Assembly (NCBI GenBank): GCA_034687125.1
Contig: JAQGBZ010000054.1
Location: 1-64,000, forward strand
Source of the DNA: Neelides folsomi
Lineage: Eukaryota > Arthropoda > Collembola > Neelipleona > Neelidae
Direction: 5' to 3'
DNA length: 64,000 bases
This document shows, piece by piece, positions 47,505 to 53,045 of this stretch; the stretch's first letter is position 1, and each line of letters starts with the position of its first letter. Both the position numbers and the translations under genes were made by a program. A model generated the notes under the pieces. It ran no database searches. It was not told where the DNA came from and saw only the letters and a program-made list of their open reading frames with translations.

Positions 47505-47560
47505 TGAATGGTGAAACTGGGAAGTATACGAAATTAAGAAGTGGAGAGATCGTGGCTGAT

Positions 47561-50500
47561 ATGCACGAAGTGGGAATCAGAGTTGTTCGTGGTCCAGATT
47601 GGAAGTGGGGAAATCAAGTTCGTAAATCCTTTTTTATCAACAACTAATCTCATCATCTAATATTAAACAAATTTCGGATATCTTCAAAGGCCTTCATTTA
47701 TCCTTGGTACAGGACAATGGGGAAGGGCATGTGGGGACAGTGGTCGAAGTTGGACGACCTGGTTCTTCTTCCTCTCCTGATAAAACCGTCGTTGTTCAAT
47801 GGGACATGGGATCCAGGACAAATTATAGAATTGGATACCAAGATGCGTTCGATTTGAGACTCTTCGACAATGCCCCTGCCGGTACTTAAAATTCACGAAT
47901 ACCTAATTTCATTTGCTTCAAATTATCAAATTTATCCCAGCACAAAACAATTTCCAAAGAAGGATTTATATTCATTTGGAGCCGAATTGTGCTTAGATTG
48001 AATCCTTTTGGGACGGCTTGGGTGCCATTTATGGCTCCAAGTATCAATATCGGAAGGGACAAAAAATATCGATTTAGATAAGCTAAAAGGAAGGTGAAAG
48101 ACTGAGGTGAATAATGAAATATTTATATTATGGTAATTTCAATCTTTCCAGGAGTCCGTCACCCTAATGTTATCTGCGATGGTTGCAAAGACCACGGGAT
48201 ATCAGGAATGCTTTGGAAATGTGGTCGTTGTTTCGATTTCGATCTCTGTACAATGTGCTACATGAATGATACTCATGATTTGAGTCATCCCTTTCGTCGC
48301 TTTGATATGACTTCGTCGGCTGGGTAAAAACAATAAGGACATGTTTCCTTTTATTACTTTTTTATCATCTATTTGTGAGTGTTGTAAGATTAAACTTGTT
48401 TTTTCCTTATCATTCAAATTACATTTTTACTGTCTGAATTCTCTGAATGTCTGAATGCTTCCCGTTTGTTAAAATCATATTTGAATTTTAAATCATATTA
48501 TTGTTGTTATTTAGTGTTGATCTTCCTCCGAGACTTGAAAGTCCAAAGATAGTCTCTCGAGGAATATTTGCTGGTGCACGAGTTCTACGTGGACCAGATT
48601 GGGATTGGGGGAATCAAGACGGAGGTATGGATTATAATATGATTTAATAAAAATTTGGCTCACGTCTTTGTGGGCACCATCGCAGGTTTAAAAGTTTGAA
48701 GAGTATTCGAATCTCACGTTTGTAATATTGAACTTCTCAGGTGAAGGGAAGATAGGACGGGTTCAGGATATACGTGGGTGGGATAACGAGTCAGGGCGGT
48801 CGGTGGCGAATGTGATTTGGAGCTCAGGGTCCACAAATGTTTATCGATTGGGCCATAAGGGGAAAGTTGACTTAAAGTGCGTGCAGGCTTCGTCTGCTGG
48901 ATCATACTACGTAAATCATCTAGCCATACTTGGTGAGTTCTACATTCATTTGATTTATATGTCAAAATGAGACATGAATGTCAATTTTACAACTTTTAAA
49001 ACGATTCATTTTAACATTCAGCTTTTGTAATTCAGCTTAGTCTTTTCAATTTAAAAAAGGCAAATTGATTTGGAACGATTTTGTATTTAAAAGGAATGCC
49101 GTCGTCAACAATAAATCGGTCATCGCTCGCTGCGAAAACTCCAACATGTTCGAGTAGCAGTACGAGTAGTGGGATTTCCCTCAAGGCATCAACTGGGCAA
49201 AACTTTAATTTTAATGTGGGAGATAAAGTACAAGTGGCAGAGGACATAGCGAGACTTAAGGAAATGCAAGAAGGCCATGGTGGTTGGAATCCTCGCATGG
49301 GAGACGTAATTCTTTTTTATATCTCAATTTACATATTAAGAATACTCTATTGATTTTTATGGCTTCCGCACAAATAAATTTCCAAAACAAGTCATTGATC
49401 TTGTTAGGAGCCGACTTGTGCGTAGATTAATTCTTTTGGGACGGCTTGGAATATTTTTATTGTTCCAAGTATCAATATCGAAAGATACAAATTTACAACA
49501 AATAATTATAATATTTGTAATTGTAATTATTTATATAATGAAATGATGTTCAACATTTTGATCTTGTTTTTAGTTTATTGGGAAAGTTGGAACTGTCCAC
49601 CGCGTAACGGACAAAGGTGATATCCGCGTTCAGTATGATTCTTCAATCCGTTGGACTTTCAATCCTCAAGCAGTAACGAAAATAACTGCCTTCTCAATCG
49701 GAGATCTCGTTCAAGTTCATTCGGATGGAGCAAAGGTGAAAGAGCTTCAGAAAGGTCATGGGGAATGGGTCGATGTCATGAAAGATGTCCTTGGGAGAAG
49801 TGGAACAATTGTGAAGATTTATCCAGATGAAGATCTTCGAATCAATTTTGGATCTTCATCGTGGACCATGAATCCGCTTGCAGTTCGTTTAGTTCCTTCG
49901 GATAGATTTGAAGCGAATAATTCTATGTATGCTAATTGCCGAGAAGATACTTCTGGTTAGTAATATAATTTATTTATATTCTGAACCAAGATATAAAATA
50001 GTGACATGATATAAAATGCTTGGTTTTATTCCAAATAAATAATTGAAACCCTAAATGGCTTTTAGGTCAGGACCCAATGTCTGCAATGCTGCCGCAACTT
50101 TTGGATGAAGTTTCATTAGAACCCACAGCTGTCACTGTTGTTCAATTTATAAAAGAAACCGTACAAGGAAGAATCGAAGTGGCGAAGAAAATGATCCCAA
50201 AAATGAAAGACAGGGTAAGGTTTCATTTATGAATGACATTTTTAAACATTTCATTTTTCATTGTTAAAAGCTAAAAATGATATTGTTGGACAGTTGAATC
50301 ACAAGGGTGGTGGTAAAACTCCATTGCAAGTGGCTGCCCACCAGGGTCAGCTTGAACTCGTTGTTCTCCTCATTGCTCATGGAGCAAATCTTGAGGTTCC
50401 TGATGACGACGGAGACACAGCGCTTCATTACTCAGCTTTTGGGTAATTAATTTTTAATTGAAATTGAAAATTCTTTCAGCACAAATACAATTTCCAAAGA

Positions 50501-53045
50501 ATTTTATATTCTATTGGAGCCGAATTGTGCTTAGATTAAATTCTTTTGGGACGGCTTGGTTTCTTTCATTTTAATAGGTCCAAGTATCAATATCGAAAGG
50601 AACAGTAACTCAAAGATAAATTATTAAATATCCGCATAATTGTATGAAGTTTTTACTTAATTTATGATTTTTGTTTTTAGCAACCAGAGCCCAGTGATTG
50701 AGCTATTGTTGAAAGCTGGAGCTCTTGTCAATGCTACCAATCGTGGCCAATGTACTCCACTCCATGTGGCAGTCAATAAGCAATTTCTCGACTGTGTTAA
50801 AATTCTGCTCAAATACAAATGCAACGTTAATATACAGGTAAGTTTAGAATTTTTCTGGTTACCCAAAGACTTTCCGTATTGAACCGATTTTTATCCCCGG
50901 GCTTAAATTAAAAATCAGGTTTGACCAGGGCCTATATTTCGGGCAGGGGATAATAATTGGTCACCTCAAAAAATGTTGGAAAAGTATTTAAATATTTAGA
51001 ATAATTTATATTAAAATAATGCATTTTTACATATTTTTGCATCATCATCAATATTATCATAGTTTTATAGTTTTAAAAGAAGAAGAATAGTGATGAAAAT
51101 AAGTCTATTATACACTCAAACAAATCCTAAAAATGAAAAAGTTTAAAGTTTTGCAAATCCTCTCTAAATAAACATTTGTCTCTTTATAGACGGCTGGGGG
51201 TCACCGTCTTGTAACACGGGTGCCCATAAGCGATTCAATGTTTAACAAAATGTGTTTTTAATATATCTAAGGGGGGGCTATAATTAGGGCAGGGGCTATC
51301 TTTTAAATCCTTAATGTGACCCAGGGGCTATAATTCGGGCAGGGGATAAAAATCGGTTCAATACGGTATCCAAAATTGATAGACAGAATAAGGATTGGGA
51401 AAAGAAGGAAAGAAATATTGTGGTTTGGTGGTAATGTGAAAATTGATCTGTCAACAGGACTCGTATGGGGACACGGCACTTCATGATGCGATAGGAAAGG
51501 ATAATAGAGAAATCATTGATTGCTTCCTCAACACCCCAGGAGTTGATTTTACTTTAAGGAACAATCGCGGTTTCAACGTGCTTCACCATGCCGCACTCAA
51601 AGGAAATGCATAGTAAGAAATACCAATATTGTCCTTTAACTTTCCATTTCTCTTTTAGCACATTGTGTCAAACATTTAATTAACGATCATTTGATAATAA
51701 TTTTTTATTTGCAGTGCAACTGAAAAGTTCTTGGGGAAAGCACGTCAATTAGTGGATGTGAAAAAAGACGATGGGTTTGCAGCTCTTCATCTTGCTGCTT
51801 TAAATGGTCACTATGAAGTATCGAAGGCTCTTTTAGAACAAGGACAAGCGGAAATTGATATACGAAATAATCGAAAGCAGACACCGTTATGTTTGGCTGT
51901 GAGTCAAGGCTATTGTAGCCTGGTTGAGCTTTTCATAACCAAAGGAGCCTCTGTTTCTCCGGAGGATGAAGACGGAGACACGCCGCTTCATATCAATCTT
52001 GTCAAGCACTTTGACGGCCAGTCTCAACAATTATCACAAGAAGGGACAACAAGTTCATTGGAGTTGAGGAAATACGAAAATGCACCATCCATTGCAAAGG
52101 TTTATAAATGTTTTCATATAAATTGTTATTAGATTAAGTTGTAGTCATTTAATCGTAGAATTGTTTCATAGTTTTGCTGATCTCATATAAATTGTTATTC
52201 ATGAGTCAGTCAAATCAAAAATATTTTTATTTATTTTACAGATATCTCTAAACTTGGTCACTTGTGGATGGAATGCATCTGATGAGGAACTTGGTGGAGC
52301 TGTCCTTGCATGCTTTATGGCCCAGTCAGGAGCTGATCTCAATAAGAAGAATCGTCGTGGAATTGCTCCTTTCGATTTAATTAAAAACGATCGTCTCAAA
52401 GAGATGCTTGTGTTTTACTCTGCTCAAACGAGGTAAACTTAAACAAAAACTTACAATTTTCAATATTGATATTAACAGATTAAACTATTTATATAAGGAA
52501 TAATTTATATAGTAAAATATTAATTTAAATGGGTTTTTGATTATTTCAGATTAAGACAAGGAAGACGCGAAGACGAGGATACAAGTCGTCGTTTGAGAGT
52601 TGATGCTACATCACCAGGAGGAACTTCAACCAAATCGCCTTCTGCTGGACCTCCAGCTGTCTCGGCTGAATGCGTCCTTTGCTCAGAAGTTGGTGAATTG
52701 ATCACATTTGAACCTTGTGGACATCGATGTGTTTGTGAAGAATGTTGCATTCGAATGAAGAAATGCCTCACTTGTCAAGAAACAGTTATAAAGAAAATTG
52801 GCAAAGGAGGTCGCACTGTTGGATCTGGCCGAGTCAGTCAAGGTAATCCAAATTCAGAACGCTTGAAATACCTCGAGAATAAATTTGCGGAAATTGAGGA
52901 AACCTACCTCTGTTCGATCTGCATGGAACGACGACGAAACATTGCGTTTCTTTGTGGACATGGAACTTGTGAAAGATGTGCGGATGTTCTTTCCAATTGT
53001 CACATGTGCAGAACTCCAATTACTCAGAAAATTAACCTTTATTAG
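47561..53045 (+). CDS. mib2: Mind bomb 2 E3 ubiquitin ligase
   Basis: Fourteen exons (47561-47617, 47713-47881, 48152-48323, 48515-48624, 48741-48932, 49094-49305, 49574-49955, 50066-50214, 50294-50442, 50681-50837, 51458-51612, 51715-52099, 52242-52432, 52550-53045) give 991 residues. Domain order: MIB/HERC2 ([15 protein letters not shown]), ZZ zinc finger ([19 protein letters not shown]), second MIB/HERC2 ([20 protein letters not shown]), two REP repeats ([26 protein letters not shown]), about eight ankyrin repeats (residues 480-800), and two RINGs (CVLC from about 867; [20 protein letters not shown]). Two rather than three RINGs, and the second RING's sequence, identify MIB2 rather than MIB1. 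It ubiquitinates Notch ligands and, in flies, is needed for muscle integrity. The start is the first in-frame ATG after an acceptor at 47504. Three introns host H/ACA RNAs. Confidence 0.95.
47939..48064 (+). ncRNA. H/ACA box snoRNA, copy A (mib2 intron 2)
   Basis: 5' hairpin: basal stem AGCACAA/TTGTGCT (47939-47945 with 47987-47993), apical stem TCCAAA/TTTGGA. The H box is AGATTGA from 47995. 3' hairpin: basal CCTTT/AAGGG (48004-48008 with 48054-48058), apical CTTGG ... CCAAG (48017-48041) continued by GCC/GGC. The ACA box is at 48059-48061, three bases before the end. The apical base to H box distance is 14 nt; to ACA about 16-17 nt, as the class requires. It is in the sense strand of its host intron, as for intron-processed snoRNAs. 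The H box departs from ANANNA at its last base. Confidence 0.85.
49367..49492 (+). ncRNA. H/ACA box snoRNA, copy B (mib2 intron 6)
   Basis: Same architecture as copy A. The basal stem is CGCACAA/TTGTGCG (49367-49373 with 49416-49422): the outer pair is C-G where A and C have A-U, a compensatory change. The apical stem of hairpin 1 is AACAAG/CTTGTT, also different but paired. H box AGATTA at 49424-49429. Hairpin 2 has basal TCTTT/AAAGA and apical CTTGGAA/TTCCAAG. ACA at 49487-49489. The 3' pocket strands GGGACGG and TATCAATATCG are identical to the other copies. Confidence 0.88.
50478..50607 (+). ncRNA. H/ACA box snoRNA, copy C (mib2 intron 9)
   Basis: Basal stem AGCACAA/TTGTGCT (50478-50484 with 50525-50531). 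Apical stem TCCAAAGAAT/ATTCTATTGGA, closed by a TTTAT loop. H box AGATTA (50533-50538). Hairpin 2 has basal TTCTTT/AAGGAA, with paired changes relative to copy A, and apical CTTGG/CCAAG around a longer loop. ACA at 50602-50604, followed by GTA. The intron is 238 nt and the RNA sits about 35 nt after the donor and 73 nt before the acceptor, a usual spacing for intronic H/ACA RNAs. Confidence 0.88.
50874..51366. mobile_element. 493-bp MITE with about 30-bp inverted ends, in mib2 intron 10
   Basis: The left end CCGTATTGAACCGATTTTTA followed by TCCCC matches, as reverse complement, the right end (GGGGATAAAAATCGGTTCAA followed by TACGG). Inside, the motif GGGCAGGGGAT occurs at both ends in the same orientation, with GGGGCTATAATT nearby. 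There is no coding capacity. I could not define a target-site duplication, so the superfamily is open. Confidence 0.7.

Follow-up and report, generated by a model that had tools for sequence, protein, structure and literature searches.

Paralogous small RNAs lying in several introns of one host gene have been described in chicken and in Drosophila. Nearly all chicken snoRNA paralogues reportedly originate inside a gene, and the 18S rRNA position 1196, i.e., the site of yeast snR85, is assigned to GGgACA22, with two variants in introns 2 and 6 of TBRG4, and to GGgACA23 in TBRG4 intron 7 (PMC2653536, in the available part of the text). Like the copies that we describe here in a mind bomb 2 (mib2) gene, the vertebrate ACA5 family has multiple H/ACA paralogues, which occupy separate introns of a single protein-coding gene. 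This family (ACA5/5b/5c), which we take to be the one also named SNORA5, has as its 18S-1196/snR85 site the same site that is weakly predicted for hairpin 1 of the mib2 copies. SNORA5 is nevertheless absent from the five relaxed Rfam matches in the mib2 gene. The two sets also differ in their host, which is TBRG4 for the ACA5 family, and in the presence of a further chicken member, GGgACA21, in AP2B1, the last of four gene variants given against ACA5 for the snR85 site, while the 3' hairpin of chicken GGgACA22 is listed for 18S-1580 and not for the site predicted here for hairpin 2 (both in the accessible sections of PMC2653536).

Drosophila minifly/Nop60B (mfl) resembles the mib2 locus in that paralogous small RNAs are encoded within a single host gene, each in an intron of its own. 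Its introns contain four DmSnR60 C/D copies, two snm60 copies, and one H/ACA snoH1, and it differs from the mib2 case in that the multicopy snoRNA is of the C/D type and the host is the pseudouridine synthase itself (PMC1821038, as far as its available text extends). The chicken TBRG4 and Drosophila mfl cases thus show that the arrangement is already known; what is new here is which gene hosts the copies, in which species, and what hairpin 2 is predicted to target. Among springtails, a genome paper gives three H/ACA-associated loci, recognized by similarity to known families (PMC5644144, partial text). Our searches, limited to open-licence papers, brought up no description of a mib2-hosted snoRNA, in line with an earlier note on this DNA, whose author knew of none; the part of PMC11011815 available names mib2 only as a Notch-pathway gene.

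The window, i.e., the whole stretch of 64,000 nucleotides (64 kb) analysed here from the springtail Neelides folsomi, contains a mib2-like gene with 14 modelled exons, and its product holds MIB_HERC2, ZZ, SH3_15, ankyrin, and C3HC4 domains (Pfam). The best protein match of the model is from the springtail Orchesella dallaii (72% identity), followed in score by a cricket protein (55%). Splice sites were placed by eye and frame in a model that starts at 47505, and the intron numbers 2, 6, and 9 depend on this start, so that an upstream exon would shift the numbering. One copy of the repeated unit lies within each of these three modelled introns, always in the sense of the gene, as the earlier note had claimed. 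The gene, the introns, and the parts of the three copies (A, B, and C) are as follows.

47505..53045, plus strand: mib2-like host gene, 14 modelled exons with a coding frame to the stop (exon model, translation)
47882..48151, plus strand: modelled intron 2, host of copy A (exon model)
47939..48061, plus strand: copy A, H/ACA snoRNA body up to the ACA, with about 3 nt more expected at the 3' end (genome search, fold, descriptor)
47995..48000, plus strand: hinge of copy A, AGATTG, with the last letter off ANANNA (sequence, descriptor)
48010..48015, plus strand: left guide of hairpin 2 in copy A, GGGACG (target scan, guide pattern)
48043..48050, plus strand: right guide of hairpin 2 in copy A, ATCAATAT (target scan, guide pattern)
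48059..48061, plus strand: ACA box of copy A (sequence, descriptor)
49306..49573, plus strand: modelled intron 6, host of copy B (exon model)
49367..49489, plus strand: copy B, H/ACA snoRNA body up to the ACA (genome search, fold, descriptor)
49424..49429, plus strand: H box of copy B, AGATTA (sequence, descriptor)
49438..49443, plus strand: left guide of hairpin 2 in copy B, GGGACG (target scan, guide pattern)
49471..49478, plus strand: right guide of hairpin 2 in copy B, ATCAATAT (target scan, guide pattern)
49487..49489, plus strand: ACA box of copy B (sequence, descriptor)
50443..50680, plus strand: modelled intron 9, host of copy C (exon model)
50478..50604, plus strand: copy C, H/ACA snoRNA body up to the ACA (genome search, relaxed Rfam, fold, descriptor)
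50533..50538, plus strand: H box of copy C, AGATTA (sequence, descriptor)
50548..50553, plus strand: left guide of hairpin 2 in copy C, GGGACG (target scan, guide pattern)
50586..50593, plus strand: right guide of hairpin 2 in copy C, ATCAATAT (target scan, guide pattern)
50602..50604, plus strand: ACA box of copy C (sequence, descriptor)

The copies begin 35-61 nt downstream of the 5' splice site and end 76-90 nt upstream of the 3' splice site. Intron 10 of the same gene holds an element of another kind (50874-51366), which has a perfect inverted repeat of 25 bp, its arms separated by 443 nt, together with internal direct repeats, and which looks like a MITE.

Up to the ACA, copies A, B, and C measure 123, 123, and 127 nt, and with a 3-nt tail 126, 126, and 130 nt, in agreement with the unit of 126-130 nt reported earlier. 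In alignment A2, A and C are 88.4% identical, B and C 78.5%, and A and B 75.4%. Minimum free energy (MFE) folding gives a hairpin-hinge-hairpin-ACA structure in all three copies, as does a structural descriptor when the H box is written as ANANNR. Two structural details of the earlier note were also recovered, i.e., the outer basal pair, which the consensus pairing shows as C-G in B but as A-U in the other two copies, and the apical stems of hairpin 1, which appear in the folds as AACAAG/CTTGTT in B and AGAAT/ATTCT in C. The hinge given there as AGAUU(A/G) is present in every copy, but it conforms to the ANANNA consensus only as the AGATTA of B and C, the AGATTG of A departing from it at the last letter. 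The ACA is located at the end of hairpin 2, or no more than 1 nt from it, in 3/3 copies by both fold and descriptor. According to the descriptor, the pocket of hairpin 1 has 6-7 nt on the left and 5 nt on the right and lies 13 nt from the H box in all copies, and that of hairpin 2 has 4 nt on the left and 7 nt on the right and lies 16 nt from the ACA; in each copy, these distances fall within the range of about 13-16 nt before the H or ACA box by which H/ACA RNAs are recognized. Compared with dinucleotide shuffles, the MFE z-scores are -3.2 for A, -4.3 for B, and -2.4 for C, and in all three copies the fold is more stable for the sense strand than for the complementary one. The earlier reading of these units as H/ACA RNAs is thus borne out in architecture, boxes, and spacing for B and C, and for A with the sole exception of the final H box letter.

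The earlier note had also proposed dedicated H/ACA searches. The descriptor ranks A, B, and C at the top once the H box is relaxed; Rfam yields no match at gathering score in the 64 kb window. The descriptor, which contains H/ACA anatomy only, was run on both strands of the window. Its strict form (H = ANANNA) returned three candidates, with B and C at the top and A missed, and its relaxed form (H = ANANNR), a relaxation chosen after inspecting copy A, returned four, with A, B, and C as the top three. The fourth relaxed candidate scores -28.1 versus -28.4 for copy C; it is an H/ACA-like structure on the minus strand at 164-298 (H-like box ACAATG), found at 197-316 (ACAATA) in the strict scan, and may be due to chance. 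Applied to 61,296 bases from 20 further loci of this genome, two of which overlap slightly, the relaxed descriptor returned no candidate. At relaxed Rfam thresholds, there are five matches in the mib2 gene, and the two snoRNA families among them are both H/ACA and both fall on copy C only, with weak E-values of 0.19 and 0.21. SNORA13 (RF00396) matches over both hairpins of copy C with 26.6 bits versus a gathering score of 53, and yeast snR85 (RF01240) over the first hairpin with 24.2 bits versus a gathering score of 37.

Of the 133 alignment columns, 44 are variable, and these cluster in the upper part of hairpin 1 (15/30 columns invariant, partly through misalignment) and at the apex of hairpin 2 (6/20 invariant); the hairpin 2 pocket (11/11) and the stem above it (12/12) are invariant. 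When random letters were placed at the 44 variable columns, both hairpins were kept in 22 (A), 25 (B), and 19 (C) of 400 sequences, and an energy as low as the real one was reached in 0, 1, and 22 of 400, respectively. In a milder control, in which the observed letters were mixed among the copies, both hairpins were kept in 398-457 of 1000 sequences, and the real energy was reached in 10 (A), 13 (B), and 203 (C) of 1000. Both controls share alignment A2, which adds some falsely variable columns. Based on the two controls, structural constraint is clear for A and B and less so for C, and the earlier statement that the differences respect the structure therefore stands for A and B in both controls but for C in the harsher one only. 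The paired changes put forward in its support exist in 5 of the 36 consensus pairs, one of the five in the misaligned part, but 11/36 fail to pair or contain a gap in one of the copies. This is in part an effect of alignment A2, in which MAFFT places B wrongly within the upper hairpin 1, and pair counts for that part are not relied on. The RNAalifold covariation term is a penalty of +1.55 kcal/mol, and classical covariation among the copies is modest.

One copy might be the working snoRNA and one or two others decaying paralogues; in favour of this, the hinge of A is off ANANNA, hairpin 2 of C is weak (z -1.7), and C is unremarkable in the milder control. Nevertheless, none of the three copies has lost either pocket or the ACA, the hairpin 2 guide is the same throughout, and the lowest summed hairpin energy by the descriptor is that of A. 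We regard such decay as unlikely, though it deserves some weight, and favour the reading that A, B, and C are all H/ACA snoRNAs. Alternatively, the copies might be intronic RNA structures that influence how mib2 is spliced, e.g., if one intron pairs with another. Their location 76-90 nt upstream of the 3' splice site in each of three mib2 introns would suit such a role, as would the finding that intronic snoRNAs can affect host splicing (PMC10324135, from the portion available). Such a role is very improbable for elements with an H box, an ACA, H/ACA pocket spacing, and complementarity to 18S rRNA, all unneeded for splicing, and the folds suggest that copies of the same sense would favour local hairpins.

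A 138-nt query searched against the 75.1 Mb assembly to which the window belongs (840 contigs, possibly incomplete) matched exactly A, B, and C. The exact hairpin 2 pattern is likewise found in A, B, and C only, and nowhere on the other strand. A comparable search with the end region of the intron 10 element gave five places on five contigs, the query included. A looser hairpin 2 guide pattern had 14 matches, three of which are A, B, and C, distributed as 6 and 8 over the two strands versus 0 and 3 for the reversed pattern; 9 of the 11 other matches were scanned, and none of the nine holds a descriptor candidate. The compared flanks (33 nt on the 5' side and 57 nt on the 3' side) are 35-52% identical between copies at the best of 7 offsets. 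A dispersed or SINE-like repeat was rejected, with three matches in 75.1 Mb, all in mib2 introns; dozens of copies outside introns, which the earlier note had named as a result that would speak against its reading, were not returned by these searches. The simplest origin of the copies would be duplication within mib2. That they are functionless remnants of a SINE-like or snoRNA-derived retroposon, for which one could point to the sharp ends of the repeated unit, the five A's that follow the ACA of copy A, and the retroposition of H/ACA RNAs described in human (PMC8178906, part of the text), is hardly credible when the 3/3 matches sit in one gene and in one sense whereas the intron 10 element is spread over five contigs, when no target-site duplication above chance surrounds the copies, and when the differences gather in loops and leave the hairpin 2 guide invariant.

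Taken together, the features established by computation support that A, B, and C are H/ACA snoRNAs, to which we assign a probability of roughly 0.92. These features are the architecture and boxes, the spacing of the pockets, the location in introns, the number of copies in the assembly, the conserved guide, and the complementarity to 18S rRNA of other species.

The rDNA of the organism itself was not found in the assembly by DNA probe or pattern, and the targets were assessed on the 18S rRNA of other species, taken from eukaryotic rDNA in other records and confirmed with Rfam. These sequences (L016-L022, the confirmation excluding L020) come from records of bacterial genomes in GTDB and from a single IMG/VR record, where they are apparently contamination. 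The 18S loci were fetched with a pattern containing GATTACGTCCC, and the presence of GATTACGTCCC in them is thus by selection. The target scan covered four SSU sequences (one of them partial), 5.8S, LSU pieces, and U2. The genome itself yields U2 snRNA at four places above the Rfam cut-off (L012-L015), one match being clearly weaker (77.4 bits versus 143.1-162.5 bits). As a target, U2 (L012) reaches at best 16.6 among the rows listed, which is below the hairpin 2 scores on 18S.

The guide of hairpin 2 is identical in A, B, and C and fits 18S GUUGAU[U]ACGUCCC, a match first spotted by hand on 18S and scored afterwards. The bracketed U is the top site for hairpin 2 in all copies, with scores of 31.6 on L021, 28.8 on L019, 26 on L022, and 24 on L018, and the next different site reaches 18.2 with the pocket set in this way and 20.6 when all three settings are considered. 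Shuffled-rRNA controls reached the score in 4/300 cases for L019 and 1/300 for L021, and shuffled guides in 10/300 and 2/300, respectively; the scores on L022 and L018 are close to the mean of the shuffled controls (22.9, sd 2.4). Guide complementarity is above controls on the 18S of two other species for hairpin 2, and not for hairpin 1. Judged from complementarity, the contact between hairpin 2 and this 18S stretch is probably real.

The hairpin 2 site is position 1613 of the L019 SSU (1800 nt). By our own count on the human sequence, we take it to be approximately human U1677, presumably adjoining Am1678, upstream of the decoding site. As anchors for this count, we used Am1678, psi1692, and Cm1703, as listed in PMC6182160 (available in part). 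In the portions of the human (PMC6182160) and yeast tables available, the site is not listed as a pseudouridine, and the number 1677 does not appear in the available text of PMC6182160, nor 1613 in that of the yeast review. Any of five GATTACGTCCC-type strings occurs in 94 papers, and the matches listed include yeasts, algae, nematodes, and a leech, which suggests wide conservation of this stretch of 18S. That hairpin 2 of all copies guides an 18S pseudouridine at about human U1677, as a modification specific to the springtail lineage, with a triplicated guide hosted by a Notch-pathway ubiquitin ligase gene, is a tentative proposal that we hold as rather doubtful.

For hairpin 1, pairing is possible with GCGGC[U]UAAUUUG at position 1181 of L019, where A and C each form 4+4 pairs and B forms 4+6, and hairpin 1 differs from the snR85 case in that the left guide pairs only 4 in A and C and 6 in B. 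Shuffles reached the score in 223/300 cases for A and C and 86/300 for B, and other sites score equally high for hairpin 1 of A and C. Human psi1238 is, by our own count, presumably the same site as yeast psi1181. Yeast snR85 guides 18S psi1181 (PMC8307265, partial text), and human psi1238 is modified at 97% (PMC6182160, partial text). The snR85 Rfam match of copy C and the pairing of hairpin 1 are not independent of each other. With a match no better than chance, it is possible, though somewhat less than an even prospect, that hairpin 1 directs the yeast psi1181/human psi1238 site, which we offer as a lead.

We propose that three paralogous intron-encoded H/ACA snoRNA genes may have arisen by duplication inside mib2, and that selection would keep the three copies. 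Each snoRNA would be released from the spliced intron and would bind the dyskerin/NOP10/NHP2/GAR1 core, as is established for H/ACA RNAs as a class. The snoRNAs would then guide pseudouridylation of 18S rRNA, hairpin 2 being predicted to act on the bracketed U in 5'-GUUGAU[U]ACGUCCC-3', and hairpin 1 may guide the yeast psi1181/human psi1238 site.

As a mechanism, intronic snoRNAs in mib2 would be ordinary. From hairpin 2 follows a site-specific prediction that can be put to the test, namely a pseudouridine in 18S that the available parts of the human and yeast lists do not contain. SnoRNAs are thinly annotated in springtails, and the mib2 family, which lies below Rfam thresholds yet is clear from structure and paralogy, shows how such genes can be found.
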